From the NCBI RefSeq assembly GCF_027307225.1, contig NZ_DAHUXJ010000097.1, forward strand, positions 1 to 64,000: a stretch of 64,000 nt of DNA. Reading direction: 5' to 3'. Shown here piece by piece: positions 9,795 through 45,371 of the stretch. Made by a program: the position numbers and the translations under genes. Under the pieces are notes generated by a model that made no database searches, had not been told where the DNA came from, and worked only from the letters and a program-made list of their open reading frames with translations. Within the stretch, counting starts at the first letter, position 1. Each line of letters opens with the position of its first letter. The stretch is from Bradyrhizobium sp. (GTDB taxonomy: Bacteria; Pseudomonadota; Alphaproteobacteria; Rhizobiales; Xanthobacteraceae).

Positions 9795-9962
9795 CTAGTG
9801 GAGTGGATTTGACATTCGCTACCCACCTAGCCGCAAAATCGGAAAGCGAATGTCAAATCCTAAACTCCACTAGAGACTTATATTTGCTAGTGGTCCTTTG
9901 ATTCTAACATTCGCAAAAGTGCCCGCCGAGAAGGGATGCGAATGTTAGAATCGGACCACTAG
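9795..9962. repeat. CTAG double-hairpin element copy 1 (hairpins 9795-9873 and 9887-9962)
   Basis: CTAGTGGAGTGGATTTGACATTCGCT...AGCGAATGTCAAATCC[TAA]ACTCCACTAG, linker agacttatatttg, CTAGTGGTCC[TTT]GATTCTAACATTCGCA...TGCGAATGTTAGAATCGGACCACTAG. Confidence 0.95.
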
Positions 9963-10251
9963 GAGAACATGCGAAGCCCGTGATCGTTTCGAAAGAACAC
10001 GAGTTTGATACGGAACCACCCGGTTCCCGTGTGGTGCCACACTTCGGCCAGGGACCGACTGTCCGTTATGGCCAGCACCGGAAGCAGCCGAACTCTCATT
10101 CGATCACTTCGTCGAGACGGGGTAGGATCTGTGGCGGCACTGCTAGCAGCAGCTTGTCTTTCCTTTTGCATCTTCACGGGGTCAACCATCGCACCCTCGC
10201 AGATCAGCAGCATGGTGACGAAGATTTGCCACCACGCTGCTGTTGTCTGCA

Positions 10252-10623
10252 TCAGGGCAGCACGTTGGTGAAGCCTCCGCCGACGCCGACACCGCCGTTG
10301 TTGGAGAAGGCGCCGCTCAAGGCCGCGCCCCCACCCGGACCAGCCACTGCACCGGACTGACCGACCGACTGGCCGATGGAAGTGCCGATGCCCGCACTGA
10401 GGCTTCCCACAGGCGTCGCAACGGCAACACCGCTCCCCACCGAGGTATTGATGCCATTGGCCGCCGAGGCCGCGGCTGCGTTGCCCAACGTTCCAGCGCC
10501 GGTGATCGTGGTCACATTACCAAGATTGAAACCACCACCAATGGCGAGCGTCGAGCCGGCATCAGCCGGCACAATGCTTCCCACCAGGGCGATAAACCCA
10601 ACACTCATCATTAGCTTCTTCAT
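10252..10623 (-). CDS. Glycine-rich exported protein
   Basis: N-terminal signal peptide MKKLMMSVGFIALVGSIVPADA followed by Gly/Ala/Ser/Val-rich sequence. Confidence 0.7.
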   Translation of the reverse strand: MKKLMMSVGFIALVGSIVPADAGSTLAIGGGFNLGNVTTITGAGTLGNAAAASAANGINTSVGSGVAVATPVGSLSAGIGTSIGQSVGQSGAVAGPGGGAALSGAFSNNGGVGVGGGFTNVLP

Positions 10624-10634
10624 TGCGACTCCTC

Positions 10635-11366
10635 CTATTCGGTTTCCGCCACGGCGTGCGCCGGGGCGGGTGGTGCTGCCGCGTGAATGACTTCACCCTT
10701 CGCCACCGATTTCTTCTTCGGTGCCGAGTGGTGAACGGTGTGAGCCCAGACGCGGCAGCGTTGCCGGGTCACATCGTAGTCGTTGCAAAGACGGGTCTTG
10801 CCTGCCGGCCCTTCCACCAGCCAGATGTCGCTGACCGTGTGGGGCTGCTCTCCGGTGGCCTGGTCGTAGCCGCTCAACACCGGCGCGGACTGCGGCAGGT
10901 ATATCCGGCATACCTCCGGCATCGATCGGTAGATCTCGCCGTTGAGACAAAGCCGCGCCACCGCGGCCTTCTTCAGGCCCATGCTCCACAGCGACCGCGC
11001 ATCGAGCCGCGCCGCACAGCCGGGATCAGGGATCGTGGTGCCGAAGGTTAATCCGGTCCCGAGGAACGCGCCGCCGCCGGAAACCGACCCGAGGCACGTT
11101 TCGAGCCCGGCCGCGGCCAGGCCCGGTGCAAAAACGCTCGGCACGTTCTTGACCGTCTGATTGGCCGGCACGTTGCTGTTGCTGGTGATCGTCGCCGAAG
11201 GATTGCCACCGACGCCGACCCCGACCCCGCCTTGCCCGGAGATCGCCTGCGACGTCGATGTTGATGTGCCAACGCCGACGCCCGTCCCTGCCGCCGTCGA
11301 TGATTGAGCCCATGCAGGACCGCTCGCCGCCATCGCAACGATGGCAGCCGACAAAAGCCGCTTCAT
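10635..11366 (-). CDS. Exported hypothetical protein with Gly/Ser/Thr-rich N-terminal region
   Basis: Signal peptide MKRLLSAAIVAMAASGPAWA; cysteine-containing C-terminal half. Confidence 0.72.
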   Translation of the reverse strand: MKRLLSAAIVAMAASGPAWAQSSTAAGTGVGVGTSTSTSQAISGQGGVGVGVGGNPSATITSNSNVPANQTVKNVPSVFAPGLAAAGLETCLGSVSGGGAFLGTGLTFGTTIPDPGCAARLDARSLWSMGLKKAAVARLCLNGEIYRSMPEVCRIYLPQSAPVLSGYDQATGEQPHTVSDIWLVEGPAGKTRLCNDYDVTRQRCRVWAHTVHHSAPKKKSVAKGEVIHAAAPPAPAHAVAETE

Positions 11367-11497
11367 GATGAATCTCCGCCGCGCTGGGATGAACTTCCAA
11401 CCGTCCGCCGACGGAAACGCGAGGAGAAAAAGCCGGTTCTGCTTGCTCAGGCGACGCTAGCCGCGTCGGTGGGCTCTCCGATTGATTTCAATTTATC

Positions 11498-11674
11498 TTA
11501 AATTTTTGCTATTTTCATCCGCAGCCTTGTTTCGTGGTTAACAGGCGCGACGCCATCTTCGAGCTCGCCGTCAGCTTCGAATGCAAGATCATCCAGCTCT
11601 TCGTGCGTGAACTTCTTCCCCCGAAGCGCAACTGAAACGCGTGCGCGCCTTTGCCCATCCTGCACAACGATCAT
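11498..11674 (-). CDS. Small hypothetical protein overlapping the end of the SDR gene
   Basis: MIVVQDGQRRARVSVALRGKKFTHEELDDLAFEADGELEDGVAPVNHETRLRMKIAKI; 4-nt overlap with the upstream stop. Confidence 0.4.
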   Translation of the reverse strand: MIVVQDGQRRARVSVALRGKKFTHEELDDLAFEADGELEDGVAPVNHETRLRMKIAKI

Positions 11675-12411
11675 AAAATCAACCCGCCATCGACGACGAT
11701 GGTCTGGCCGATGATGTAGGACGACAACGGCGAAGCGAGGAACAGTGCCGCGCCCGCCATGTCCTGCGGCGTGCCGAGCCGCCGCAGCGGAATCTGCGAC
11801 AGCGCACCCTCGAGCCGCTTCGGATTGTCCGTCGTGACTTTGGTCATCTTGGTATCGACCAGCCCCGGCGCGATGCCGTTGACGCGGATGCCGTCCTCGG
11901 CCCAGGCCTCGCCGAGCGTCCGCGTCAGCCCGACGGCGCCGGTCTTCGAGGCGTTGTAGGCGGGATTGCCCATCGTGGAATGATAGGCCGCGGTCGAACT
12001 GACGATGATCAGCGCACCCTTGGCGGCGCGCAGCTGCGGATGGAATTTGGTGGCGCACGCCATCAGGCTCATCAGGTTGACCTCGAGCACGGCGCGAAAG
12101 CCGTCCATCGCGAATTCACCGCGGCGGTAGATCACCGCACCCTGCGCCAGCACCAGTACGTCGAGCTTCGCGAGCGGTGGATTGAATTTCTCGATGGCGC
12201 CTGCGTCGCTGACATTGAGCTGGAAATAATCGAGGCCATCGAGGCGCGAGCCTTCGTCCGCCGAATACTCGGAAGCCTTGGCCCGCGTGCCGCAGACGGC
12301 AACGCGTGCGCCCTTGGCGCGAAACGCCTGCGCGATGCCGTTACCGATGCCGGAGGAGCCGCCGACCACCAGCACTTGCCTGCCTGAAAAATCGAGCTCG
12401 TTCATTTCCAT
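11671..12411 (-). CDS. SDR family oxidoreductase
   Basis: VVGGSSGIGNGIA; YNASKTGAVGLTR; VNGIAPGLVDTKM. Confidence 0.92.
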   Translation of the reverse strand: MEMNELDFSGRQVLVVGGSSGIGNGIAQAFRAKGARVAVCGTRAKASEYSADEGSRLDGLDYFQLNVSDAGAIEKFNPPLAKLDVLVLAQGAVIYRRGEFAMDGFRAVLEVNLMSLMACATKFHPQLRAAKGALIIVSSTAAYHSTMGNPAYNASKTGAVGLTRTLGEAWAEDGIRVNGIAPGLVDTKMTKVTTDNPKRLEGALSQIPLRRLGTPQDMAGAALFLASPLSSYIIGQTIVVDGGLIL

Positions 12412-12533
12412 CCCTTTCCCACTTCGTTTGACCCGTCCTGGAGCATGATCCGGAAAGGCGGATGCCCATTTTCCGGAAACCTCATGCTCGAATCCAGATC
12501 GGGACGGGATTTAACCCGATCGCCGCGAAATGC

Positions 12534-12559
12534 TACGAACTTCGGAACCGAGACGCTAG
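12534..12559. repeat. Outer-arm remnant of the CTAG double-hairpin element
   Basis: tacgaacttcggaaccgagacgctag, compare outer arm tacgaacttcggaatcggagcactag at 34838-34863. Confidence 0.7.
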
Positions 12560-12573
12560 AATGGGCGCAGGCC

Positions 12574-13386
12574 ATGTCAATTGGCGACATCATCAGGGAA
12601 ACGTCCATGCCGGAATTCAGGGAGCTCAGCCGTTCGGTGAAGGGATTGACCGTGCTCGTCACGGGCGCGGCAAGCGGCATGGGCCGCGCCACCGCGCGTG
12701 TGTTCGCTGCCGAAGGCGCCAATGTCGCGGTAACGGATGTCAGCACCGACGGCGTCACATCCGTCGCCGGCGAGATCACGATGAGCGGCGGAACGGCAAA
12801 GGCCTGGATGCTCGACGTCAGCGATCCCAGGGCGATCGAGCGCGCGATCCCGCAAGTGGCCACGCATTTCGGCGGCCTCGACATCATCGTCAACAATGCC
12901 GGCATCTCCGTGCGCGTTGCGATCGACGATCCCACCTATGATGAAGCGTGGGCGAAGGCGATTGCGGTGATGCTAACGGCGCATCCGCGCATCATCCGCG
13001 CGGCGCTGCCTTACCTGCGGAAATCCAGATGCCCGCGCATCGTCAACATCGCTTCCACCGAGGCGCTGGGCGCCACTGCGCTGCATAGCCCCTACGCCGC
13101 GGCCAAGGGCGGCGTGGCGAGCCTGACGCGCTCGCTCGCCGTCGAACTCGGCCGCGAGGGCATCACGGTGAACTGCATCTGCCCGGGGCCAATTCGCACC
13201 GCCATCACCGAGCGGATTCCAGAGGAGCACAAGACCCTCTACGCCAAACGCCGCACCGCACTCGGCCGCTACGGCGATCCCGAGGAAGTCGCGCACATGA
13301 CCTTGAGCCTGTGCCTGCCCGCCGCCTCGTTCCTGACCGGCGCGGTCATCCCGGTCGACGGCGGGCTGATGGCGCGCAACGCGTGA
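12574..13386 (+). CDS. SDR family oxidoreductase
   Basis: VTGAASGMGRATARVFAAEGANVAVTD; YAAAKGGVASLTRSLAVELG; VNCICPGPI. Confidence 0.9.
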   Translation: MSIGDIIRETSMPEFRELSRSVKGLTVLVTGAASGMGRATARVFAAEGANVAVTDVSTDGVTSVAGEITMSGGTAKAWMLDVSDPRAIERAIPQVATHFGGLDIIVNNAGISVRVAIDDPTYDEAWAKAIAVMLTAHPRIIRAALPYLRKSRCPRIVNIASTEALGATALHSPYAAAKGGVASLTRSLAVELGREGITVNCICPGPIRTAITERIPEEHKTLYAKRRTALGRYGDPEEVAHMTLSLCLPAASFLTGAVIPVDGGLMARNA

Positions 13387-13482
13387 TTGCAGGCTCCATT
13401 CGCGGGTAGGCAAGCAGCATTGCACGCGGCGAGACCGATCGAGAGCAGTCAGGTCACCCACTCAAGGTCGGCCCGCCTACCC

Positions 13483-14694
13483 TCAATCGAAGCTGACGAT
13501 CTCGACCCAGTTGGCATCCTTCCCCGCCGGGTACTTTCCGATCAATGTGAGACCGCCATTCGCTTCGTCGATCCTGTAAGCGGAAATCGTATCTGACTTT
13601 TCTCCGGAAACGACGAGAAATTTTCCTTTCGGGTCGATCGCAAAGCCGCGCGGCTGTTTCTCGGTGACCGTACTGCCAAGATAGGCGAGCTTGCCGGTCG
13701 CGCTGTCGACGCTGAAGGTCGCAAGCGTACTGCCGGTGCGTTCCGCCACGTAGAGAAATTTGCCGTTCGGTGCCAGATGCAGGTCCGACGCCCAAATGTC
13801 GTTGTCGGTGTTGCGCGGCGGTGGGCCGCCGGGTACGGCTGGGCCGCGCGGCGCGCCGGGAACGAGCTTTGTGTCAGGCGGCAGGCCGGATATCGAACTC
13901 ACTTCCGTCAATAGACCCGTCTTGCTGTCGAGCGCGAACGTCGCAACCGTGCCGGTGAGCTCGGCAAGCAGGTAGACAAACCTGTTGTCGTTCGACGTCA
14001 CGAAGTGACGCGGGCCTTGTCCCGGCTTCATCAGGACGACCGCCGGCGTGTTCGAAGCAAGTCGTCCCTTCTCTGCGTCGAATGTGAACTGGAATACCTC
14101 ATCGCTGCCGAGCGTCGGCACGAAGACAAATTTGTTGCTGCCGTCGATGCGGATCGAGTGGGCGTTACGGCCAACCGGTATCACCTGGAGCGGCTTGGGC
14201 GAGACGCTGCCGTCCGGCTTCACGGCATTGAGGCTGATCAGGTTCGCGCTGTACGACGCGCCGAACAAATAACGCCCCGTCCTGTCGAGCGAAATGTATG
14301 GAAAGCTTTCGGCCAGCGGCGACGTCGAGAGCGGCTTCAGCGAACCCGTGTTGCGGTCAATCGAATAGACGTACACCGTATATGGCTTCGAACGCGCCGC
14401 CGCGTAGAGAAAGCGCTTGTCCGGGCTCACCGCCATCGGCATGACGACCTTCGCTGCCTTGGCGTGCTCTCCCACCTTCAAGGAGCCATCCGCCTGTACG
14501 CTATAGACCCCGATGTCGCCATCCTCGGCATTCGATACGTAGACGAATGTTCCCGCCTGTGCCGGCACGTGGCCGATCAGTGCCGCCAATCCGGCAATTG
14601 CGATCCCACTGGTCAGTTTCGCGATCGTTTTCAACGTCAACCTCCCTTTATGTCCCCTGGCGATACGCTCTGAGCGGCATTGATTGCCGTGCAT
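13483..14694 (-). CDS. Lactonase-type seven-bladed beta-propeller protein, exported (start uncertain)
   Basis: VYVSNAEDGDIGVYSVQADGSL, HSIRIDGSNKFVFVPTLGSDEVFQF, GNAHS-like and RGFAIDPKGKFLVVSGEKSDTISAYRID repeats. Confidence 0.88.
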   Translation of the reverse strand: MHGNQCRSERIARGHKGRLTLKTIAKLTSGIAIAGLAALIGHVPAQAGTFVYVSNAEDGDIGVYSVQADGSLKVGEHAKAAKVVMPMAVSPDKRFLYAAARSKPYTVYVYSIDRNTGSLKPLSTSPLAESFPYISLDRTGRYLFGASYSANLISLNAVKPDGSVSPKPLQVIPVGRNAHSIRIDGSNKFVFVPTLGSDEVFQFTFDAEKGRLASNTPAVVLMKPGQGPRHFVTSNDNRFVYLLAELTGTVATFALDSKTGLLTEVSSISGLPPDTKLVPGAPRGPAVPGGPPPRNTDNDIWASDLHLAPNGKFLYVAERTGSTLATFSVDSATGKLAYLGSTVTEKQPRGFAIDPKGKFLVVSGEKSDTISAYRIDEANGGLTLIGKYPAGKDANWVEIVSFD

Positions 14695-14817
14695 GCGCTA
14701 GAAGCAACGGGATGACACGCGTTGCTTCATATTCCCGTCAAGCCTTGCAATCGTATCGTAGCGGTTCGGATCAGGGAAGGTCTCGCCGTTGTCGGTCTTG
14801 GGTCAAAACAGCAAGAG

Positions 14818-14900
14818 CGTAGGATGGGTGGAGCGAAGCGATACCCATCGGTTATTGTTCGGATGCGATGGGTTTCGCAAACTGCTCAACCCATCCTACG
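14818..14900. repeat. Imperfect palindromic intergenic repeat (CGTAGGATGGGT...ACCCATCCTACG)
   Basis: cgtaggatgggt and acccatcctacg ends are inverted complements. Confidence 0.75.
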
Positions 14901-14963
14901 AACTGCAACAATCGACCTGACAATCCGTTGTAGGAAACGTTCCTCGCATTCTCGGAGGTCGCC

Positions 14964-15323
14964 GTGATCGAAGTGATCAGTGCCATTACGCTTGCCACGC
15001 ACGATATGCCGCGCGCCGTGCGATTCTACGTTTCCCTCGGATTCGAAATCGCGTATGGCGGCGAAACCGCCTCCTTCACCAGCTTTCGCGCCGGAGCGGG
15101 TTATCTCAATCTGATCGCCCAGCCCGCGGAGAAGCAATGGTCATGGTGGGGCCGCACCATTTTCCATGTCAGCGATGTCGATGCGCTTTATGAAGCCGCT
15201 CTCGCCGCCGGGCACCGGCCATCGACGCAGCCTCGCGATGCCGAATGGGGCGAGCGCTATTTTCATTTGACCGATCCGGACGGCCACGAACTCAGCTTTG
15301 CAAAGCTGCTGGCCGAACGATGA
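14964..15323 (+). CDS. VOC superfamily (glyoxalase/bleomycin resistance-like) protein
   Basis: ITLATHDMPRAVRFYVSLGFEIAYGG ... YFHLTDPDGHELSFAKLL. Confidence 0.92.
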   Translation: MIEVISAITLATHDMPRAVRFYVSLGFEIAYGGETASFTSFRAGAGYLNLIAQPAEKQWSWWGRTIFHVSDVDALYEAALAAGHRPSTQPRDAEWGERYFHLTDPDGHELSFAKLLAER

Positions 15324-15354
15324 TTTTCCCTTGACACCTTTTTCAGCACGCCAA

Positions 15355-15960
15355 GTGATTTGCCCGTCGTGCCAAAGTGCCGCAGGCATCTTCGCTTGCG
15401 ACGACGGGCAAATCAGTGGTTCCTCTTCGCGCGTCCCGCACCCGATCAGAGGGGCGCTTCGCGATCGTCACGAACGTGGGGTGCGGGATGCGATGGACGC
15501 GGACTGGAGCAACCGACGAATGCGCCAGAGCGCGGACGGAGAAGTTGTGGCGTCCTGATGCCTCGACGCTGGCATCAACTCGTGACAATGCTTCGCATTG
15601 CATGGGGATGGTGGCAAGAAGGCCCGATCACCAGGGAGACCACAAAGGAAACCGTTAAAACCGTCGCGCAGGGAATGCCGGATTGTTCGGCCAACCTGTG
15701 GTGACTAACTCGTGTGCATTTTACTTTTGCGCACGAGGCCGCGGGTGCGTCGCGCGCCCGGCATTCCCTGCGCCCTCCTGTCGAGGGCATCTGGCAAGAC
15801 TCGGACGCGGTTTGCGTGGCGGGAACGCCCCATTGCGTCTTCATGACGGCGGCATGTCGGCCATGATAGGACAAGGCAAGGTGAAGGGTGAAGCGATCCC
15901 CGACATGAAGGCGCTCTCGACCTGGGTCGGCGGCCGTGAAGTTTTTCACGCGCCGGGATA
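15355..15960. repeat. Putative non-coding reiterated region typical of Bradyrhizobium-like genomes
   Basis: Starts with inverted repeat tgatttgcccgtcgt...acgacgggcaaatca; then tcccgcacccgatcagaggggcgcttcgcgatcgtcacgaacgtggggtgcgggatgcg. No convincing CDS. Recognised from memory as a recurrent segment; not verified. Confidence 0.5.
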
Positions 15961-16076
15961 TGAGTAGAAATGCCCGTCACCGCTGTCATTGCGAGCAACA
16001 GCCAACGGGTCGCGCGAATGCGCGCCCGATGACAGGCTCCGCAATCCAGTGTCACAAAAGACGAGGTGCTATGGGA

Positions 16077-16859
16077 TCACTTCCCCGGCCACACCGGCTT
16101 GCGCTTCTCGGCAAACGCCTTCAGGCCTTCCTTGGCGTCCTCGGTCATCGCGGTGATCGCGATCTGGCCTTCGGTGTAGGCGATCGCCTCGTCGAACGAC
16201 ATCGAGGCGATGGCGCGCATGGCGTATTTGCCGCGCCGGATCGCGGTCGGCGACTTGTCGGTGATGCGGCCGATCAGCCATTCGACCTTGGCGTCGAGTT
16301 CGCCCTGCGGCACGACGTGATTCAACAATCCCGCAGCCTGTGCGGCCCTGGCGTCGAACGGCTCGCCGGTGATCGCCCATTCGTTGATCACCCGCCGCGG
16401 CGCGATCGACTGCAACAGGCTCAAAACCTGCATCGGGAATACTCCGACCTTCACCTCCGGCAGGCCGAAGATCGCGTGGTCGGACGCGATCGCCATGTCG
16501 GTCATGCACAACAGCCCCATGCCGCCGGCCATGCAGACGCCGTTGACCCGCGCGATCGCAGGTTTGGTCGCGCCCTGCGACAGCCGCAAGAGATCGGCGA
16601 AGTCGACATTGGGCTTGGAAAAATCCTGCGAAAAGGCACCGCCGGTATTCTGCAAGTCCGCGCCCGCGCAGAACGCTTTCTCGCCTGCTCCCGTCAGCAC
16701 GATCACGCGCACGTCGGCGTCGTCATGCGCCATGCGATAGCCGCGCGAGATGCCGGCGATGACGTCGGCATTGACGGCGTTGCGCTTCTCCGGCCGGTTG
16801 ATCGTGATCCACAGTGCGCTGCCGCGCTTCTCGGTGAGGACGCTGGTAGTTTCGGTCAT
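16077..16859 (-). CDS. Enoyl-CoA hydratase/isomerase family protein
   Basis: WITINRPEKRNAVNADV, VIVLTGAGEKAFCAGADL, ARVNGVCMAGGMGLLCMTDMAIA. Confidence 0.92.
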   Translation of the reverse strand: MTETTSVLTEKRGSALWITINRPEKRNAVNADVIAGISRGYRMAHDDADVRVIVLTGAGEKAFCAGADLQNTGGAFSQDFSKPNVDFADLLRLSQGATKPAIARVNGVCMAGGMGLLCMTDMAIASDHAIFGLPEVKVGVFPMQVLSLLQSIAPRRVINEWAITGEPFDARAAQAAGLLNHVVPQGELDAKVEWLIGRITDKSPTAIRRGKYAMRAIASMSFDEAIAYTEGQIAITAMTEDAKEGLKAFAEKRKPVWPGK

Positions 16860-16926
16860 GGGTTCATCCGCTCTTATAATGGGGCTAATATTAGAGCATA
16901 GGCGAATGGAGGAGCTAAAGACTCTG

Positions 16927-17062
16927 CATCCCTCCCCCTTGCGGGGAGGGTCGACGCGAGCATCGCGAGCGTCGGGGTGGGGGGTCATGAAGATAGACCC
17001 CCACCCTGGCCTACGCTTCGCTTCGCTCCGGCCGTCCCTCCCCGCAAGGGGGAGGGATTAAT
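16927..17062. repeat. Palindromic intergenic repeat (CCCTCCCCCTTGCGGGGAGGG type)
   Basis: tccctcccccttgcggggagggtcgacgcgag...ccgtccctccccgcaagggggaggga; matches 4477-4613. Confidence 0.85.
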
Positions 17063-17096
17063 TAAGAGCGTGCTTCAACCAATGAAGAAACAAAGA

Positions 17097-19235: not shown

Positions 19236-19237
19236 AC

Positions 19238-19406
19238 CTAGTGGTCCGATTCTAACATTCGCACCCCGCCTCGGTGGCCACTTTTGCGAATGTTAGAATC
19301 AAAAGGACCACTAGCAAATATAGGTTTTCAGTGGAGTTTTGGATTTGGCATTCGCTAGATGAACTCGCAGCCAGACGGGTAGCGAATGCCAAATCCACTC
19401 CACTGA
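19238..19406. repeat. CTAG double-hairpin element copy 2 (inverted order relative to copy 1; hairpins 19238-19314 and 19328-19406)
   Basis: CTAGTGGTCCGATTCTAACATTCGCA...TGCGAATGTTAGAATC[AAAA]GGACCACTAG, linker, TCAGTGGAGT[TTT]GGATTTGGCATTCGCT...AGCGAATGCCAAATCCACTCCACTGA. Confidence 0.95.
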
Positions 19407-20241: not shown

Positions 20242-20258
20242 GTCGCGCCCCTCCACGC

Positions 20259-34696: not shown

Positions 34697-34863
34697 CTAG
34701 TGCGGTGAATTTGAAGTTCCTATCAGTTTCGCGGTGACCTCGTCATAGGAACTTCAAATTCTAAACCGCACTAGAATCATATAATTGGCTAGTGCTCTTT
34801 TGATTCCGAAGTTCGTAAACGTGGAGCCGCAATATGATACGAACTTCGGAATCGGAGCACTAG
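34697..34863. repeat. CTAG double-hairpin element copy 3 (hairpins 34697-34774 and 34789-34863)
   Basis: CTAGTGCGGTGAATTTGAAGTTCCTAT...ATAGGAACTTCAAATTC[TAA]ACCGCACTAG, linker aatcatataattgg, CTAGTGCTC[TTT]TGATTCCGAAGTTCGTA...TACGAACTTCGGAATCGGAGCACTAG. Confidence 0.95.
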
Positions 34864-34885
34864 TGGTCCGATTCTAACATTCGTA
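34860..34885. repeat. Extra outer half-arm abutting copy 3
   Basis: ctagtggtccgattctaacattcgta shares its CTAG with the end of copy 3 and has no partner arm. Confidence 0.85.
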
Positions 34886-34913
34886 TTGTGTCGCGGAGAG
34901 ATCGGGGGCCAGC

Positions 34914-35912
34914 ATGGGGGACGTTCCACAAGTGAAGCCGGGCGCGATCACACGTCGTTCCCTGCTCAGTACAGCGGCGGCGATCGCCGCCACGCCTGCA
35001 CTCGCCGAGGAATGCCGGATCGGGCCGCCGCCGCACGAGAAAGGCGCAAAAGTCTGGATGGACATGGATCAGGTCGAACTGGACGCGGCCTACGATCAGT
35101 CCTTCTATGCACCCACGATCGGCCAATTCCGCAAGCGCTTCGCCTCGATCAGCGAGACGACGCGAAAGCGGCTCGGCGCGCCCAGGCGATTTTCCTATGG
35201 GCCGACCCCGGTCGAAGGCCTCGACGTCTTTCCGGCGCGCACGCCGAACGCTCCGATCTTCGTGTTCATTCACGGCGGACGCTGGCTGCGCGGCACCGCG
35301 AAGGGTTACGCATACCCTGCCGACCTCTTCGTCAACGCCGGCGTCAATTATGTCGTGCTGGATTTCATCCATGTCGACGAGGCCAACGGCGATATCAGGG
35401 TGATGGCCGACCAGGTCCGACGCGGCATCGCCTGGCTCTACAAGAACGCAGCCGCTTTCGGCGGCGACATCAAGCGCTTTTATGTTGGCGGCCATTCCTC
35501 CGGCGGCCATCTCGCCGGCGTCGCTGTCACGACCGACTGGCAGAAGGATTTCGGCTTGCCTGCCGACATGATCAGTGGCGGCCTTCTGATGAGCGGCCTC
35601 TACGATCTCAAGGCCGTGCGGCTTTCCGCGCGCGGAAAATACGTCAAGTTCGACGACGGCATGGAGCAGTCGATGAGTTCGATCCGCCACATCGATCTCT
35701 TGCGCGCGCCGATCACCGTCACCTACGGGACCTTCGAGACGCCCGAATTCCAGCGCCAGTCGCGTGACTTTGCCGCCGCCGTCAAGGCCGCCGGAAAACC
35801 GGTCGAGCTAGTCGAAGCGCCGGACTTCAACCACTTCGAAATGTGCGAAAGCCTCGGCAATCCCTACGGCCCGAATGGCCTCGCGGCGCTCAAGCTGATG
35901 AAGCTTGCCTGA
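34914..35912 (+). CDS. Alpha/beta hydrolase (esterase/kynurenine-formamidase-like), twin-arginine-like signal
   Basis: ITRRSLLSTAAAIAATPALA; IFVFIHGGRWLRGTAKGYAYPADLFVNAG; YVGGHSSGGHLAGVA. Confidence 0.88.
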   Translation: MGDVPQVKPGAITRRSLLSTAAAIAATPALAEECRIGPPPHEKGAKVWMDMDQVELDAAYDQSFYAPTIGQFRKRFASISETTRKRLGAPRRFSYGPTPVEGLDVFPARTPNAPIFVFIHGGRWLRGTAKGYAYPADLFVNAGVNYVVLDFIHVDEANGDIRVMADQVRRGIAWLYKNAAAFGGDIKRFYVGGHSSGGHLAGVAVTTDWQKDFGLPADMISGGLLMSGLYDLKAVRLSARGKYVKFDDGMEQSMSSIRHIDLLRAPITVTYGTFETPEFQRQSRDFAAAVKAAGKPVELVEAPDFNHFEMCESLGNPYGPNGLAALKLMKLA

Positions 35913-37032: not shown

Positions 37033-37694
37033 GCGCCAGACACACCCTTCAGCACGGCCGCATCCCACACGGCATAACCTGCGGCATCGAGGTGGACGCC
37101 GTCGATCGTATGCGGGGCCGGCATGGGCGGCAGCGCGGCGAAAGCCGCGCCGCCCTTGTTCGCCAAAGCCGGAAGCATCGCGTTGAATGCATCGATGCGC
37201 TTCATGGTCTCGGCCTGGTAGTCCGGCGGCATGCGCCCGCGCACCTCGATTGAGGGAATGCCGAGTACGGCAAGATGATCGGTCGCATCCTTGAGCTGCG
37301 CGAGGAGCGATCCGTAATTCGCTTCGAACTCCTTTTGCTCGCGTCCCTGCAGCGCATCGTTGGTGCCGAGCGCAATCATGATGGCCGCGGCGCGGCGGCC
37401 ATTGAGCGTCTCGCGTAGCCATGTCCCGAGATCGCTTGCCGTGGAAGCGCCGTCCAGCCCCGCATTGACGATGGCGTGATCGCATAGTGTCCGAGGCAGC
37501 GTCGATGCTTCCGTGATGCTGTCACCGAGCACGATGATGGGCTGTTCGACCCGGCTCAAGGTGTAGTGCAGTATGATCTGGCGGGTATGCCGGTGTGCAT
37601 CGACATGCACCGGTTTCCTGAAATACGACCAGCCGGCCAAACCCGCCCCGATCGCAAGGCTGACCAGTGCGGCGGATTTGGCATTCGCTTTCAT
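37017..37694 (-). CDS. SGNH/GDSL hydrolase family protein
   Basis: IIVLGDSITEAST; MIALGTNDALQG; TIDGVHLDAAGYAVWD; 16-nt overlap with the acyltransferase gene. Confidence 0.92.
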   Translation of the reverse strand: MKANAKSAALVSLAIGAGLAGWSYFRKPVHVDAHRHTRQIILHYTLSRVEQPIIVLGDSITEASTLPRTLCDHAIVNAGLDGASTASDLGTWLRETLNGRRAAAIMIALGTNDALQGREQKEFEANYGSLLAQLKDATDHLAVLGIPSIEVRGRMPPDYQAETMKRIDAFNAMLPALANKGGAAFAALPPMPAPHTIDGVHLDAAGYAVWDAAVLKGVSGACSKP

Positions 37695-37766
37695 GTCGCC
37701 ACCGCAACCAGGCTGCTGATCCGATTCCGCCCGAGGAACCGACAAGGGAATTAATAAGGAAATCGG

Positions 37767-37862
37767 CTAGTGTGACGGTTCAGAAGTTCGCATCATTTGT
37801 GCCGCGGGTTCGTCGAAACGTGGCTCCGAAAAATGATACGAACTTCGGAATCGGGACACTAG
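37767..37862. repeat. Single CTAG-bounded hairpin related to the double-hairpin family (copy 4)
   Basis: CTAGTGTGACGGTTCAGAAGTTCGCATCATTT ... AAATGATACGAACTTCGGAATCGGGACACTAG; neither arm carries the TTT insertion. Confidence 0.9.
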
Positions 37863-38012
37863 GCGTCGGAAATAGAAATAGCTGACGGAATCTTAAAATA
37901 TCATTCGCCGCACGGAGCGGATTCTGCCCCGATCCGGCTCCTTGCGGGCAAGGCTTGACAGCCCCTGCCTTTAACCCCTCACAATGCATCAAACAGAAGA
38001 TGAGGGAGCGCC

Positions 38013-38789
38013 ATGGCGCGAAAACTGATCGATATTTCCGTGCCGCTGCAAAACGACGTTCCGGCCGATCCGCCGGGCATCAATCCGCGCATCGAATATC
38101 ACGATCACCAGCAGAGCCTGCCGCGCATGCTCGGCTTTTTCCCGGGTCTCAAGGCGCAGGATCTGCCGGACGGCCAGGGTTGGGCGATGGAGACGGTGCA
38201 GCTCTCGACCCATAACGGCACCCATCTCGATGCGCCCTACCACTACCATCCGACCATGAACCGCGGCGAGCGCGCCTGGACCATCGAGGAAGTGCCGCTC
38301 GAATGGTGTTTCCAGCCCGCGGTCAAACTCGACTTCCGGCATTTCGCCGACGGCTATGTCGTCACCGCTGATGATGTCGAGGCCGAACTCAAGCGCATCG
38401 GCCATACGCTGTCGCCGCTCGAGATCGTCGTGGTCAACACCAGCGCCGGCGCCAAATACGGCCAGGCAGACTTCGTCAATTCCGGCTGCGGCATGGGCTA
38501 TGAGGCGACGATGTACCTGCTCGAGCGCGGCGTGCGCCTGACCGGCATCGACGGCTGGAGCTGGGACGCGCCGTTCGTGTTCACCGCGAAGAAATACGCC
38601 GAGACGAAGGATGCAAGCCTGATCTGGGAAGGCCACAAGGCCGGGCGTCACATCGGCTATTGCCACATCGAGAAGCTGCACAATCTGGAGCTTCTTCCCT
38701 CGACCGGCTTCATGGTGTGCTGTTTTCCGGTGAAGATCGAACGCGCTTCCGCGGGCTGGACGCGCGCGGTTGCAATCATGGATACCTGA
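38013..38789 (+). CDS. Cyclase family protein (metal-dependent, kynurenine formamidase superfamily)
   Basis: LIDISVPLQNDVPADPPG; THNGTHLDAPYHYHPTMNRG; GIDGWSWDAPF. Confidence 0.9.
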   Translation: MARKLIDISVPLQNDVPADPPGINPRIEYHDHQQSLPRMLGFFPGLKAQDLPDGQGWAMETVQLSTHNGTHLDAPYHYHPTMNRGERAWTIEEVPLEWCFQPAVKLDFRHFADGYVVTADDVEAELKRIGHTLSPLEIVVVNTSAGAKYGQADFVNSGCGMGYEATMYLLERGVRLTGIDGWSWDAPFVFTAKKYAETKDASLIWEGHKAGRHIGYCHIEKLHNLELLPSTGFMVCCFPVKIERASAGWTRAVAIMDT

Positions 38790-39264
38790 AGAAACGCCAC
38801 CGGTGATTAAGATGCGGAGAGAATGATCTATTGCGCTCGCCGATGCGATTGGCAGAGCGTCGTTTCAGTCGGTTCCCGACCGAAAGAAGATGGCAGCACG
38901 CCTGGTGAGAAGCCATGCGCAAGTCCTATCATTGATTCGGGAAAGGACCTGACGCGCTCCTTCGCGCTTTATCCTTTCGTCTCATCGGCCGATGCCATCC
39001 TGCCAATCACGGCCGGAACGAGCGACCTTGTAATCCATTGAATCCGAAGAGAAAAAGCACCTTCAGAAAATATTCCCTGGAGGCAGCGGCTCGGGGCGTT
39101 AACGCTGGCGCGAAAGCAAACCGGCTGCGACGATTTTGGTCTTTCCAAGAGGCGAGCCGGGTCGTACCACGGCAACGGTTTGAGCGTTTCGCTTGCTGGG
39201 GACGCAGGCGAGGCTACAATAACGTCAAAGGCCGCCAAGGCCGAGATCAAGGGAGAGAAATATC

Positions 39265-40497
39265 ATGACGACAACATTCCGTTCGCTGCTCGGCGCGACG
39301 GCCCTCGGCCTGGTGCTGGCCTCGAGCCAGGCACTCGCCGCCGACCCGATCAAGATCGGCGTCATCGCCGAAGCACAGGCGATCGCCGGCGCCTCGATCC
39401 CGCAGGCCGCTCAGCTCGCAGCCGACGAGATCAACGCCAAGGGCGGCGTCGACGGCCGCAAGATCGAAATCATCACCTATGACAACCACTCTTCGTCCGC
39501 CGATTCCGTTCGCGCCTTCCAGCGCGCGGTCAACGAAGACAAGGTCAACATCGTCATCGCGAGCTACATCAGCGAAGTGGTGCTGGCGCTGGAGCCCTGG
39601 GCCGCGCGCCTGAAGACGCCCTTCATCACGCCGGGCGCGGCCTCCAACGAGATCAGCAAGGCCGTCCACGCCGACTACGAGAAGAACAAGTACACCTTCC
39701 ACGGCTACCTGACCTCGGCTGCGCTGGCGCAGTCGGTGTGCGACGCCGCCAAGGATCTGCTCGTCGACCAGAAGCACATGAAGACCGCCGTCATCATGAG
39801 CGAGGACGCCGCCTGGACCAAGCCGCTCGACATCGGCTACGAGGATTGCCTGCCCAAGATCGGGCTGAAGGTGCTCGACCACATCCGCTTCTCGCCAGAC
39901 ACCACCGACTTCACGCCGATCTTCAACAAGATCGAGGGCTCCAAGCCCGACGTGATCATCACCGGCATCTCGCATGTCGGCGTGCAGCCGACCGTGCAGT
40001 GGAAGAACCAGCAAGTGCCGATCCCGATGTTCGGCATCTCCTCGCAGGCCACCAACTCGACCTTCAGCAAGGACACCAACGATGCCTCCGAAGGGGTGAT
40101 CTATCAGGGCGTGTCGGGGACGGGCGTGGCGGTGACCCCCAAGAGCATTCCGTTCACCGAGGCTTTCAAGGCGAAGTTCGGCAACTTCCCGTCCTATTGC
40201 GGCTACACCGCCTATGACGAAGTTTATTACATCGCCGACGCCGTGAAGCGCGCCGGCTCGACCGACGCCGACAAGCTGGTCGCGGCGCTGGAAAAGACCG
40301 ACTGGGTCGGCACCATCGGCCGCACGCAGTTCTATGGCAAGGACGACCCCTTCACGCACTCGATCAAGTACGGCAAGGGGCTCATCACCGGGTTGATGCT
40401 GCAATGGCAGGATAGCCAGCAGGTCGCCGTCTGGCCATCGGACGTCGCCAAGGCCAAACTGAAGTTCCCGAGCTTCATCAAGGTCACGACGAACTGA
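39265..40497 (+). CDS. Branched-chain amino acid-type ABC transporter substrate-binding protein
   Basis: DPIKIGVIAEAQAIAGASIPQAAQLAADEINAKGGVDGRKIEIITYDNHSSSADSVRAFQRAV. Confidence 0.94.
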   Translation: MTTTFRSLLGATALGLVLASSQALAADPIKIGVIAEAQAIAGASIPQAAQLAADEINAKGGVDGRKIEIITYDNHSSSADSVRAFQRAVNEDKVNIVIASYISEVVLALEPWAARLKTPFITPGAASNEISKAVHADYEKNKYTFHGYLTSAALAQSVCDAAKDLLVDQKHMKTAVIMSEDAAWTKPLDIGYEDCLPKIGLKVLDHIRFSPDTTDFTPIFNKIEGSKPDVIITGISHVGVQPTVQWKNQQVPIPMFGISSQATNSTFSKDTNDASEGVIYQGVSGTGVAVTPKSIPFTEAFKAKFGNFPSYCGYTAYDEVYYIADAVKRAGSTDADKLVAALEKTDWVGTIGRTQFYGKDDPFTHSIKYGKGLITGLMLQWQDSQQVAVWPSDVAKAKLKFPSFIKVTTN

Positions 40498-40510
40498 ACT
40501 TGCGGAAGGT

Positions 40511-40542
40511 GCTCCCGGGGATTCTTTCCCCGGGAGCATTTT
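40511..40542 (+). terminator. Rho-independent terminator/attenuator after the substrate-binding protein gene
   Basis: GCTCCCGGGGATTCTTTCCCCGGGAGC followed by ATTTTC, 14 nt past the stop. Confidence 0.8.
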
Positions 40543-40591
40543 CATGGCGTAAAGTTGTCTTGAAGGGATAGGCAGCGGGGGCTGCCGCGGG

Positions 40592-40757
40592 CAGTGCCGT
40601 CTATTTGAAGTTCCTGCATTACTCGCCGCGGGTCCAACCAGGAACTTCAAATAGAAGACGGCGCTGAAAACATCAGAGATTTGCGAGTGCCCTTTGCTTT
40701 CCGAAGTTCGTGCAGAGGGTGCAGCGGGGATTACGAACTTCGGAAAACGGGCACTCG
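40592..40757. repeat. CTAG-type double-hairpin element copy 5 (hairpins 40592-40665 and 40684-40757)
   Basis: CAGTGCCGTCTATTTGAAGTTCCTG...CAGGAACTTCAAATA[GAA]GACGGCGCT; CGAGTGCCC[TTT]GCTTTCCGAAGTTCGT...ACGAACTTCGGAAAACGGGCACTCG; the CTAG ends of the second hairpin have changed to CGAG/CTCG with pairing kept. Confidence 0.92.
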
Positions 40758-40762
40758 TATCA

Positions 40763-41638
40763 ATGCTTGCGTTACAAATTCTGATCGACGGTTTTGCCAT
40801 CAGCGCGCTTTATGCGCTGGGTGCGACCGGATTTACCCTCATCTTCGGCGTCTCCGGCGTGCTGAACCTGTCGCACGGCGCCATCATGGTGCTGGCGGCG
40901 GTGGCCGCTTGGGCGGCAGCAAGCGTGCTTCACCTCGGCAGTTATTCCGGCGCGTTGCTCGGCGTGGCGGTCGCCGTGGTGGCCTCCTTCGCCACCTATT
41001 TTGCGGTGGTGCAGCCGATCCAGAAGTCACGCCGCATCGCCACGGAGGAGAAGGAAATCTTCATCCTCACCAGCACGCTGCTTTGGGGCATCATGATCCA
41101 GGAACTGATCGCCTACTTCTTCACCAACAATGCCAAGACCGTGCTGCCGATCGTCGAAGGGGTCGTCAATATCTTTGGCGAACGGACGACGAAAAACGAA
41201 ATATTCACCGCCGTTGTCTGTTGCGTTTCGATCGGCCTGCTTTGGCTGCTCGTGAACCGCACCCGTACCGGCAAGGCCGTGCTGGCGGCGTCGATGAACC
41301 CGCGCGGCGTCACCCTGCTCGGGCTGGAGCTCGGCAGCATCTATCTCGTGGTCTGGGGGATCTACGGCATCCTGGCGGGCATCGCCGGCGTGCTGCTCGG
41401 CATGTTCCTGGGGGTAAGCTCCTACAGCGTCGGACCGCTGACGGCGAGCGCGTTCTCGATCGTCGTGCTGGGCGGTCTCGGCAGCGTCTCCGGATCGCTG
41501 ATCGCAGCCTTCGTTGTCGGCTACCTCGAAACCATCACGGCCTATCTGATCTCGCCGGCCTACCGGACCATTCCGGCGCTGCTGCTGCTTGTCGCCGTGA
41601 TGTATGTGCGGCCGCAAGGCCTGCTCGGGAGGCGCTAG
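40763..41638 (+). CDS. Branched-chain amino acid-type ABC transporter permease (LivH family)
   Basis: LQILIDGFAISALYALGATGFTLIFGVSGVLNLSHGAIMVLAAVAAW. Confidence 0.94.
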   Translation: MLALQILIDGFAISALYALGATGFTLIFGVSGVLNLSHGAIMVLAAVAAWAAASVLHLGSYSGALLGVAVAVVASFATYFAVVQPIQKSRRIATEEKEIFILTSTLLWGIMIQELIAYFFTNNAKTVLPIVEGVVNIFGERTTKNEIFTAVVCCVSIGLLWLLVNRTRTGKAVLAASMNPRGVTLLGLELGSIYLVVWGIYGILAGIAGVLLGMFLGVSSYSVGPLTASAFSIVVLGGLGSVSGSLIAAFVVGYLETITAYLISPAYRTIPALLLLVAVMYVRPQGLLGRR

Positions 41639-41657
41639 GTGGGCGCTGCGACAGAGG

Positions 41658-41682
41658 ACGAACTTCGGAAGGTGGGCACTAG
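41658..41682. repeat. Outer-arm remnant of the double-hairpin element in the livH-livM gap
   Basis: acgaacttcggaaggtgggcactag. Confidence 0.75.
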
Positions 41683-41685
41683 CTG

Positions 41686-42612
41686 ATGGCAAGCTTCTTT
41701 AAATCGCGGCTCTTCTTCATTTCGATCGCGATCGTGATCGTTGCAGCGACCCTGCCGCTTTATATGTCCGGCTACGTGCTGGGCCTGCTCACGGTCGCCT
41801 TTTACTTCGGCGTGTTCGCGATGTCCTGGGATCTCTTGTTCGGCTTTGCCGGCGAGGTCAATTTCGGCCCGACCTTCCTGATCGGCGTCGGCGCCTATAC
41901 CGCCGGCATTCTGAACGCCCAGACCGGCTGGTCGGTCTATCCCTGCATTGTGCTCGGCGCGCTTGCTGCCGTGATTGCCGGGCTCGTTCTGGCGTTGCCG
42001 GCCTTGCGCGTGCGCGGACCTTACTTCGGCCTGACCACGCTGGTCGCGGTTCTGATCCTGCAGAACTTCATCGTCGTGTTCGCCGATCTCACCGGCGGCG
42101 AAATCGGCCTGACCATTCCCGACGTCATCACGATCAACGCCGGCGCGAATTACTGGATCGCGCTCGGCTTCATGACGATCAGCGCGCTCATCCTCTACGG
42201 CCTGGCGCAATCGCCGATCGGCCTCGTGCTGCAGGCGAGTGGCCAGGACCCGGTTCAGGCCGGGGCGCTCGGCTTCAACATCGTCAAGCACAAGCTCGCG
42301 GCCTTCATCGTCTCGGCCTTCTTCTCCGGCCTCTCCGGCGCGCTCTTGGTGTTCTACATGGGCACCGCCTCGGTCGGCACCGTTGTCGATATCGCGGTCG
42401 GCGTGAACGTGATCGTTGCCGCCGTGCTGGGCGGACGCCGCACCGTGCTGGGCGCAGCGCTCGGCGCGATTTTCCTGATCGTCGCCGGCGAATTCTTGAG
42501 GCCGACCGGCGAGCTTGCGACCTTCATCGTTTCGGCGGTCGCGCTTCTGGTCGTGCTGTTCTTTCCCGGCGGCTTCCTGGGCGCAGCCCTTTCGCATGAG
42601 GGGCGCTCATAA
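41686..42612 (+). CDS. Branched-chain amino acid-type ABC transporter permease (LivM family)
   Basis: MSWDLLFGFAGEVNFGPTFLIGVGAYTAGIL; LPALRVRGPYFGLTTLVAVLIL. Confidence 0.94.
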   Translation: MASFFKSRLFFISIAIVIVAATLPLYMSGYVLGLLTVAFYFGVFAMSWDLLFGFAGEVNFGPTFLIGVGAYTAGILNAQTGWSVYPCIVLGALAAVIAGLVLALPALRVRGPYFGLTTLVAVLILQNFIVVFADLTGGEIGLTIPDVITINAGANYWIALGFMTISALILYGLAQSPIGLVLQASGQDPVQAGALGFNIVKHKLAAFIVSAFFSGLSGALLVFYMGTASVGTVVDIAVGVNVIVAAVLGGRRTVLGAALGAIFLIVAGEFLRPTGELATFIVSAVALLVVLFFPGGFLGAALSHEGRS

Positions 42613-44096
42613 TGGACGCAACGACCACCAACAACGCGCCGGTGCTGGAAGTCCGCGGCCTTACCAAGCGCTTCGGCGGCTTGACCGCGGTCAAGAACCT
42701 CGATCTCGACGTTCATGCCGGCGAGATCTTCGGCCTGATCGGCCCGAACGGGTCCGGCAAGTCGACCGCGATGAAGTCGATCATGGGGATCGAGCGCCCG
42801 ACCGCGGGCAAGGTCGTCTTCCAGGGCGAGGATGTCGCAGGCCTGCCGGCGCACAAGATCGCGCGCAAGGGCTTCGGCATGGTGTTTCAGCATTCGCGGC
42901 CGCTGAACCGGCAGACGGTGCTGGAAAACATCATGGTGGCGCTGTTGCCGGACAGCCTGTTGATGCTGTTTCCGGACAAGGCGCTGACCGAGCGCGCCAA
43001 GTGGATCGCCAATCGCGTCGGCCTCGGCGCGGTGATGGACCGCCGTCCGCCCACCCTGCCCTTCGCCGATTTGCGGCGCCTTGAACTCGCCAAAGCCATC
43101 GCGCGCGATCCCAAGGTGGTGCTGGTCGACGAACCCTTTGCCGGGCTGACGCTCGCCGAGGTCGGCACCTTCTCCGAACTCATCAAGAGCTTCCGCGACG
43201 AAGGCCGCGCGGTGCTGCTCGTCGATCACAACGTCAAGAGCGTGGCGGCCCTGGTCGACCGGGTGCTCGCGATGTATCTCGGCGAGGAAATCGTCACCGG
43301 CCGCGCCGACGAGGTCATGCGCAACGAGACGGTTCGGCGTGTCTATCTCGGCGGCGCGATCGAGACGGCGGCGCGCCCCGAAAACTCCTTCAAGGACAAG
43401 GTCCCGCTGCTCCAGGTCGAAAATGTCAGCGTGTTCTACGGCAAGGCCCAGGCGCTGGAGAACGTGTCGATCCACGTCCATCATGGCGAATTCGTCTCGG
43501 TGGTGGGATTGAACGGCGCCGGCAAGACCACGCTGTTCAACACGATCTCCGGCTTTTTGCCCTATAACGGCGAGGTCATCCGCGACGGCGAAAAGCTGCG
43601 CGGCACGAGCCCGGCAAAGATCGCGCGCAGCGGCATCGTGCAATGTCCGGAATCGCGTGAGCTGTTTGGCGAGATGACGGTGCGGGAAAATCTCGATCTC
43701 GGCGGCCAGCACCTCACCGACGCGGACAGGGCCAAGCAACTCGCCTGGCTGTTCGAGCTGTTCCCGATCCTCAAACAGCGTCAGGGCCAGCTGGCACAGA
43801 CGCTTTCGGGCGGCGAGCAGCAGATGCTCGCGATCGGACGCGCGCTGATGATGCAGCCCAAGATCCTGATCCTCGACGAGCCGACGCTGGGTCTTGCGCC
43901 GGTCATCCTGGAGACGCTGTCAAAGGCGCTCGAGCGGTTGCGCCAGACCACTGACATCACCGTGCTGCTGGGCGAACAGAACGTGACGTTCGCGCTTCCG
44001 CATGCCGATCGCGTCTATGTGCTTGAGCACGCGCGGATCGTCTGGGAAGGCGATCCGGGCCGCTTCGCCGCAGAGGCTGGCGAGGGTTATCTTTAA
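42612..44096 (+). CDS. ABC transporter ATP-binding protein, fused LivG-LivF (two nucleotide-binding domains)
   Basis: Two Walker A motifs (GPNGSGKSTAMKSI; GLNGAGKTTLFNTI) and two Walker B regions (VVLVDEPFAGLT; ILILDEPTLGLAP). Confidence 0.95.
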   Translation: MDATTTNNAPVLEVRGLTKRFGGLTAVKNLDLDVHAGEIFGLIGPNGSGKSTAMKSIMGIERPTAGKVVFQGEDVAGLPAHKIARKGFGMVFQHSRPLNRQTVLENIMVALLPDSLLMLFPDKALTERAKWIANRVGLGAVMDRRPPTLPFADLRRLELAKAIARDPKVVLVDEPFAGLTLAEVGTFSELIKSFRDEGRAVLLVDHNVKSVAALVDRVLAMYLGEEIVTGRADEVMRNETVRRVYLGGAIETAARPENSFKDKVPLLQVENVSVFYGKAQALENVSIHVHHGEFVSVVGLNGAGKTTLFNTISGFLPYNGEVIRDGEKLRGTSPAKIARSGIVQCPESRELFGEMTVRENLDLGGQHLTDADRAKQLAWLFELFPILKQRQGQLAQTLSGGEQQMLAIGRALMMQPKILILDEPTLGLAPVILETLSKALERLRQTTDITVLLGEQNVTFALPHADRVYVLEHARIVWEGDPGRFAAEAGEGYL

Positions 44097-44118
44097 ATCC
44101 AGCAGCGGCTGGCTGCTT

Positions 44119-44373
44119 TCAATACGCGCGAACCGTCTGCACGGGCTCTGCCATGTTCGGCTGCGCGGTCTGCGTCGGCATGTCGGCTGCGCTGCCATCG
44201 CCGATGAATTCCGCCTGGACGGCTTGCGAAATCCAGACCGGCACCTTCGGATCAAGGGTCGCGAGTGCAACGAGTACTAGCGGTACGGCGGCGACCAGGA
44301 TGACAAATCCAACGCCGCTTTTCGGTTCGATGCGGTAGGTGCTTTTACGTGATCTGTCGTGCGGAGCGTGCAT
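44119..44373 (-). CDS. Small membrane-anchored hypothetical protein
   Basis: MHAPHDRSRKSTYRIEPKSGVGFVILVAAVPLVLVALATLDPKVPVWISQ; single TM segment. Confidence 0.55.
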   Translation of the reverse strand: MHAPHDRSRKSTYRIEPKSGVGFVILVAAVPLVLVALATLDPKVPVWISQAVQAEFIGDGSAADMPTQTAQPNMAEPVQTVRAY

Positions 44374-44473
44374 GGGTTTCTCCAGTCGCTGAAGATGTCC
44401 CCCACGCAAACTCTAGCCCGTCGCCGATCAAACCCGTGTGACCTGCTTCACATCCGCGCACTGCTAGCGTGAT

Positions 44474-45235
44474 TCAATCGTCGTCCACGCCCGATCCCGC
44501 AATTTCCTGCAGCGATGCGACGTCGAGCACGACAATGGCGCCGTGCTCAAGACGAACCCAGTTTCGCAAGGCCCAGGCGCGCAGCTGCTTGTTGATGCTC
44601 TCGCGCGACATGCCGACCATCTCGCTGATTTCCTGCTGGGTTACCGCGATGGTGCGGCTATCCTTCGCGGCCTTGTGCCGATCGGTGAGACGGATCAGCG
44701 CGCTGGCGAGCCGCCCCGGCAGATCCTGCAAGATCACCTCTTCCACCTGGTCGGACGTCCAACGCAGCCGCGCGCACAACAGCTCGATGAATTTCATCGC
44801 GAGCGCGGGCTGGCTCTTCACGAACGGCAAGAATTCGCGGCGATCGATGACGACGATCTCGCAATTGCTGTTGGCGATGGCGTCCGCCGTTCGCGCCTGG
44901 CCATCGAGAACGGCAACCTCGCCGAATATCTCGCCGGGACCGATCAGGTTGAGGATCGCGCTGCGCCCGTCGGGCGATGAAATGCTGATCTTCACCGTTC
45001 CCGAAATAACCGCGATCAGGCTATTGCCGGGGTCGCCCCTGGAGAAGATCGTCGCCCCGCGCTTGAGCATCGCGGGCTTGGCATAGCGGCCGAGCTGCTC
45101 GAACGCCTCCACATCGAGGTCGCAGAAAATCGGGTGCTTGCGCAGCACCGAAAGCTTGCCCGTCACCGGCCGGGGTTCGATGGTCTTGTCCTGGGACACG
45201 CCTACTAGAGCTCCGATTCCGAAGTTCGCAAGCAA
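44474..45235 (-). CDS. Crp/Fnr family transcriptional regulator (start uncertain, probably downstream of the palindrome)
   Basis: cNMP-binding fold LRKHPIFCDLDVEAFEQLGRYAKPAMLKRGATIFSRGDPGNSLIAVISGTVKIS; HTH VTQQEISEMVGMSRESINKQLRAW. Confidence 0.92.
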   Translation of the reverse strand: MLANFGIGALVGVSQDKTIEPRPVTGKLSVLRKHPIFCDLDVEAFEQLGRYAKPAMLKRGATIFSRGDPGNSLIAVISGTVKISISSPDGRSAILNLIGPGEIFGEVAVLDGQARTADAIANSNCEIVVIDRREFLPFVKSQPALAMKFIELLCARLRWTSDQVEEVILQDLPGRLASALIRLTDRHKAAKDSRTIAVTQQEISEMVGMSRESINKQLRAWALRNWVRLEHGAIVVLDVASLQEIAGSGVDDD

Positions 45236-45371
45236 TCAGTGGCACCTCTGATGCGAACTTCGGAATCAAAGGAGCTCTAGCAACCTATTGTTTCTAGTGC
45301 GGCTTTGAATTTGAAGTTCCTATGATGAGCTTGCCGCAACGCTGATAGGAACTTCAAATTCGCCGCACTGG
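45205..45371. repeat. CTAG double-hairpin element copy 6 (hairpins 45205-45280 and 45294-45371)
   Basis: CTAGAGCTCCGATTCCGAAGTTCGCA...TGCGAACTTCGGAATC[AAA]GGAGCTCTAG, linker caacctattgttt, CTAGTGCGGC[TTT]GAATTTGAAGTTCCTAT...ATAGGAACTTCAAATTCGCCGCACTGG. Confidence 0.95.

Follow-up and report, generated by a model that had tools for sequence, protein, structure and literature searches.

Paired palindromic elements with IS630-type ends in Bradyrhizobium and other Alphaproteobacteria

Introduction

Tenzen and Ohtsubo are said to have found, in 1991, that IS630 prefers CTAG as a target. For ISY100, a member of the Tc1/mariner/IS630 group, the transposase contacts a 24-bp end with its two helix-turn-helix motifs, insertion takes place at TA, and the 24-bp ends are likely sufficient (PMC2170065). 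Among small elements, the Correia/NEMIS repeats of Neisseria are multicopy intergenic MITEs with inverted-repeat ends, one of which has been reported to contain an IHF site, and the Chunjie MITE of Geobacter is a recently active, mostly intergenic element with inverted and direct repeats (PMC10969869). GTAG/CGTC dimers and REP/REPIN sequences have already been described in Bradyrhizobium and Rhodopseudomonas (PMC3733652), and the Br-REP1 and Br-REP2 palindromes of B. japonicum USDA 110 have the consensus sequences CCGGAATCTCGAGATTCCGG and CGAGATTCCGGGTTCGG... (PMC5082802).

Here we analyse a family of double hairpins, hereafter doublets, found in a 64,000-nucleotide stretch of Bradyrhizobium DNA (the window) that belongs, as contig 141, to a 5.6-Mb draft genome of 160 contigs. 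Like IS630/Tc1-mariner elements, the doublets show TA duplication, CTAG preference and 21-25 bp ends with the sequence and spacing of one clade; unlike them, they have no transposase gene, carry four ends instead of two, and are built of palindromes with 3 extra nucleotides in the inner arms and a conserved linker. Correia/NEMIS elements, compared by description, have one end pair where the doublets have two adjacent hairpins, and occupy another host class. Chunjie, likewise compared by description, measures 235 bp, and the review describes no double-palindrome blueprint for it (PMC10969869). The REP/REPIN sequences of the same bacteria are also paired palindromes with conserved spacers, but differ from the doublets in their 20-40 bp units, their GTAG/CGTC tags and their link to RAYT genes (PMC3733652). 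Br-REP1 and Br-REP2 are repeated palindromes of Bradyrhizobium intergenic regions as well, with neither the sequence nor the layout of the doublets (PMC5082802).

Results

Five doublets in the window

A sequence-only reading of the window had proposed five doublets, and folding and alignment recovered all of them in place, each as two hairpins of 74-79 nt around a linker of 13-17 nt, in agreement with the proposed layout. Doublet 1 (9795-9962, + strand) belongs to subfamily A and consists of hairpin 1 (9795-9873), a linker (9874-9886) and hairpin 2 (9887-9962), with its target duplication visible as TA at 9796-9797 and at 9960-9961. Doublet 2, also of subfamily A, is inverted (19238-19406, - strand; hairpin 2 at 19238-19314, linker at about 19315-19327, hairpin 1 at 19328-19406) and its right-hand TA has decayed to TG. 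The site is empty in related genomes, which are too diverged to fix the exact boundary; relatives within the genus have genomes of mostly 7-10 Mb, with about 80% identity at the compared locus. Doublet 3 (34697-34863, + strand; hairpin 1 at 34697-34774, linker at 34775-34788, hairpin 2 at 34789-34863) represents the young subfamily B and has landed on the CTAG terminus of an older remnant (34860-34897, - strand), a half hairpin formed by the outer hairpin-2 arm of subfamily A. In doublet 4 (40592-40757, + strand), of the GTGCC subfamily, the CTAG ends have decayed; its parts are hairpin 1 (40592-40666), a linker (about 40667-40683) and hairpin 2 (40684-40757). Doublet 5 is again inverted (45205-45371, - strand; hairpin 2 at 45205-45280, linker at 45281-45293, hairpin 1 at 45294-45371), and its linker, GAAACAATAGGTTGC, is IHF-like with 1 mismatch. 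Both orientations thus occur, as had been noted, with doublets 2 and 5 (starting at 19238 and 45205) as the inverted copies; the earlier numbering, which included a "copy 6", does not hold.

Fragments of the family are also present, all on the + strand: a deletion derivative that has lost the middle and joins the outer arm of hairpin 1 to that of hairpin 2 (37777-37862), and three partial hairpins 2 found as profile matches at 2252-2306 (E = 1e-5), 12518-12559 (E = 3e-4) and 41637-41682 (E = 8e-4). Two other palindrome pairs in the window, at 14818-14900 and 15356-15415, are ordinary REP-type pairs of the GTAGGATGGGT and TTTGCCCGTCG types, separate from the doublets; elsewhere in the genome, the RAYT genes L066 and L067 are accompanied by matching repeats, which are of GTAG or CGTC type.

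Copy number and distribution

Doublets are about 162-169 bp long, without coding capacity for a transposase. The 1.485 Mb of host contigs covered by the search contain 140 paired doublets, plus another 53 hairpins that are single or partial; extrapolation from this sample, some contigs of which were picked for containing matches, gives about 500 doublets for the whole genome. Subfamily B, the type of doublet 3, counts about 40 copies with 96-99% identity and has therefore spread recently. Counting the host genome each time, the family is present in 38 of 61 genomes of the genus, in 28 of 199 genomes of an order sample and in 12 of 190 of a class sample. Members occur across Alphaproteobacteria, the named records being Bradyrhizobium genomes, Pseudolabrys, Rhodoplanes piscinae, Rhizobium sp. 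Q54 and Xanthobacteraceae MAGs. The matches in one class-level relative (G444) are consistently shorter doublets, of about 117-132 bp, possibly a shorter-hairpin variant.

Inner-arm insert and hairpin layout

All 10 hairpins of the window do carry the extra bases that had been seen in the arm facing the linker, and across host copies and those of other genera the insert proved nearly universal. In 85 full-length host copies, about 150 of 170 hairpins carry an inner-arm insert of 2-6 nt, mostly 3; the same holds for 111 of the 112 hairpins in 56 doublets taken from other genera and from MAGs. Overall, an insert of 2-5 bases is found in about 90-99% of hairpins and almost never in the outer arm. 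Its site is identical in both hairpins and its bases are T-rich, mostly TTT or TTA. Hairpin 1 of L419 is an exception that has no inner insert. A solitary 73-bp hairpin on host contig C66 (C66:87127-87199), with perfect CTAGTGCTCCGATTCCGAAGTTCG arms, also has none, and is possibly a monomer with two working ends.

The divergence of the loops, pointed out from the window alone, extends to the family, yet they keep a constant length of 21-22 nt; over the class, loops and linkers alike vary little in length. The loops have a central GCSGC in about half of cases, against about 6% expected. Per-site change in subfamily A is 0.011-0.014 for outer arms, 0.021-0.034 for inner arms, 0.11-0.16 for loops and 0.12 for the linker. 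As judged by these rates, the inner arms are constrained almost like the outer ones, and they likely belong to the working element.

Boundaries and target duplication

Hairpins had been described as bounded by CTAG. Aligned copies end as TA|GTG...CAC|TA, in which TA is the duplicated target, so that CTAG stands as the preferred target but not as the end of the element, which runs from G to C. The outer C is present in 62 of 77 copies and the outer G in 72 of 77, a preference and not a fixed feature, and TA is found at both sides in 53 of 77.

A TA duplication had been proposed by analogy with IS630, and a duplication of exactly 2 bp was found at two sites. At C65:64971-65136, a subfamily B doublet is nested within the loop of a subfamily A hairpin, and removing the doublet and exactly 2 bp gives a gapless alignment to dozens of uninterrupted relatives. 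The other site lies between two genes that we take, by eye from the translation, to be fliQ and fliR. This gap is filled in five species and empty in about 60. Filled sites read TGCG-TC-[element]-TC-GNCC-ATG and empty ones have six bases between TGCG and ATG, a comparison from which the duplication is exactly 2 bp; in four of the five species the copy is flanked on both sides by TC, not TA. The five junctions (L288, L123, L124, L292 and L300) have the doublet a few bp ahead of the fliR start codon. The CTAG ends of older copies are often targets of new insertions. Mobility of the doublets is well supported.

Of 170 doublet boundaries sampled in the host, 40, about three times a rough expectation, have a long open frame that stops exactly at TAG. 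The boundary TAG consists of the duplicated TA and the first G of the element, and insertion at a TAG stop preserves the stop.

Ends of one IS630 clade

Two IS630 elements of the same genus, L151 and L153, have CTAG-flanked ends of sequence GTGTCCTGAAYCARAAGTTCG, and the best doublet arm (L120) is identical to ends of this type at 19 of 21 positions. Relatives of their transposase occur in 119 of 196 genomes. Three further IS630 groups, picked solely by transposase homology, also have ends resembling doublet arms; the doublet ends read GTGGTCCGATTCTAACATTCG in subfamily A and GTGCTCCGATTCCGAAGTTCG, and one group end, GTGGTCCAAATCTGACACTTC, resembles the former. With a weight matrix built from outer arms of the host genome and applied to IS630 ends, the four matching groups of the clade score at p of about 1e-4 or less and other IS630 groups at p of 0.03-0.2. 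Ends in the clade are spaced like the outer arms and have no equivalent of the inner insert. On this comparison of ends, the outer arms agree in sequence and in spacing with the terminal inverted repeats found in one IS630 clade, in line with the IS630 link guessed from the window. The inner arms are two more copies of the arm, inverted so that they face the linker. The IS630 elements of the clade have no palindromes themselves, so the persistence of the hairpins goes beyond end recognition alone.

Doublets and three copies of group 1 IS630 coexist in one genome of the same genus (G015). In the draft host genome of 160 contigs, no cognate transposase turned up in spite of the young copies: the genome holds just two DDE_3 genes, each of which has other ends and falls among the IS630 groups that score as random with the weight matrix. 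None of the IS630 elements found has exactly the GTGC ends seen in young subfamily B. One host IS630, L061 on contig C4, has an end starting with CTAGTGG and was considered as a partner, but its end GTGGTTCATCACAGTGATTTTGACG scores near random; it forms a separate IS630 group with L142, whose ends are CTA-GTAGCTCGTCACAGTGATTTTGACG. The frame upstream of the L061 transposase is presumably a LexA-like DNA-binding protein, recognised by eye. An IS200 gene adjoining one doublet (L063) was judged a chance neighbour. One group 1 IS630 (L239, in G081) lies within much longer perfect inverted repeats, which suggests that it inserted into, or was captured by, another inverted-repeat structure.

Central linker

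Host linkers resemble AGAATCAtannnTTGCT. The IHF consensus WATCAANNNNTTR is matched with at most 1 mismatch by 29 of 68 distinct host linkers, against 1.0 expected, and these matches lie on a single strand at a single position; the linkers are related by descent, and the shuffles therefore overstate their independence. In other species, 17 of 67 linkers match at the same threshold (about 1.1 expected). Many subfamilies have 1-2 mismatches, and several have A-to-T at position 6 of the consensus. The linker is a candidate IHF-type bend site.

Discussion

We consider it probable, at roughly 85%, that the doublets are non-autonomous IS630-family MITEs moved in trans by IS630 (Tc1/mariner-type) transposases, with putative roles for the inner arms and the linker. 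The 2-bp duplication, the IS630 ends and the many copies all agree with the nonautonomous, MITE-like mobile palindrome of the sequence-only reading, which had also named REPINs and a structured RNA as options. The REPIN option has in its favour the many intergenic copies, the inverted pairs with mirrored asymmetric bulges and the RAYT-like genes of the host, and would make each doublet an inverted REP pair propagated in single-stranded form through a RAYT (Y1) transposase. Those RAYT genes are, however, accompanied by other repeats (GTAGGATGGGT on the flanks of L066, TTTGCCCGTCG beside L067) with no doublets at either, and the doublets differ from REPINs in duplicating 2 bp of target, in having IS630-type ends and hairpins of 75 bp instead of 20-40 bp, and in lacking a GTAG or CGTC tag, all of which makes this origin extremely improbable. 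A structured RNA or transcription module, such as a terminator or RNase III site kept for the host with mobility secondary, would account for the near-perfect stems and the strong covariation, which is not due to chance: in 32 divergent doublets there are 242 double-change cells against 75 in shuffles, paired cells reach 98.4% against 82%, and only about a dozen arm changes are one-sided. Stem mismatches are nonetheless 44 G-T and 40 A-C, so that neither strand is favoured, and matched double changes without a G-U excess indicate that the palindrome acts as DNA. A comparison with Rfam gave no match at the gathering score. We reject a terminator role from gene context: the two orientations relative to genes are about equally frequent (39 vs 34), and there is no excess of convergent gene pairs (11 of 118). 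Some copies do lie between operon genes, as at fliQ-fliR, yet that gap is filled in five species and empty in about 60. At orthologous sites across species, stems differ by 0.023 and loops by 0.136, about six times more, with flanks at about 1-16%, although the comparison exaggerates the difference, both copies having been found by model score; in the fliQ-fliR set, defined by its flanks and first noticed by model score, stems appear by eye nearly unchanged and loops diverged. The low stem divergence hints at constraint at the level of the host, or reflects biased sampling; perhaps the host has co-opted some old copies, or perhaps palindromes are resistant to change. An RNA module as the primary function is still very improbable.

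Two other explanations are compatible with the IS630 MITE reading and concern parts of it. Matched arm changes could stem from template-switch correction of palindromes during replication instead of selection on binding sites, and the two could act jointly. In 37 subfamily A copies there are five compensated doubles and zero uncompensated ones, above the prediction of independence, whereas all 10 changes seen in the young subfamily B are single. Moreover, such correction by itself keeps symmetry and does not lower the substitution rate, while the arms change several times less than the loops; we regard it as an unlikely sole source of the matched changes. As to origin, two ordinary 75-bp MITEs may have inserted side by side and now be amplified as a pair. 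Each hairpin resembles a minimal MITE (end, 22 nt, end), and the solitary hairpin on C66 lacks the inner insert. Against this, linker sequence and length, inner insert and the identities of hairpin 1 and hairpin 2 are constant over the class, so that the pair is an old unit and not a recent accident, and a side-by-side origin appears doubtful.

Under the IS630 MITE reading, doublets would be mobilised in trans by transposases of one clade, with the outer arms as working ends. A transposase with two DNA-recognition domains may bind all four arms, and the inner arms, with their 3 extra nucleotides, would probably be bound and not cut. If the enzyme works like ISY100, the insert would offset tip block and binding block from each other by about one third of a turn; only in the outer arms would the terminal GTG block then be correctly spaced from the inner block for cutting, and the doublet would move as a unit. 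A bend in the linker, with IHF as a candidate bender, could bring the two palindromes together, and the fixed loop and linker lengths would fit a protein-DNA assembly. More tentatively, and as a possibility we would not favour, the doublets may form a class-wide MITE superfamily built for a four-site synapse, in which two cuttable outer and two uncuttable inner sites with the +3 mark are arranged with fixed spacing on either side of an IHF-type bend. The transposon Sleeping Beauty has ends of the IR/DR type, and such a synapse would, if true, be a bacterial analogue with an inverted layout. The MITE would then carry assembly information missing from its autonomous relatives and could outcompete them for the transposase.

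The class of IS630-derived MITEs is already known. For the doublets, we found no published name in the open literature searched, nor a double-palindrome, four-end blueprint with a +3 mark and a conserved linker (ISfinder and subscription papers lay outside this scope). It is unusual for a MITE to be palindromic and four-ended and to tell inner from outer ends by a spacing mark; this design recurs over Alphaproteobacteria with up to hundreds of copies per genome and offers a natural experiment on end choice by IS630/Tc1-type transposases. Doublets are also usable as strain-typing markers in Bradyrhizobium and relatives, and their recognition explains hundreds of intergenic palindromes that could otherwise be misread as terminators or small RNAs.
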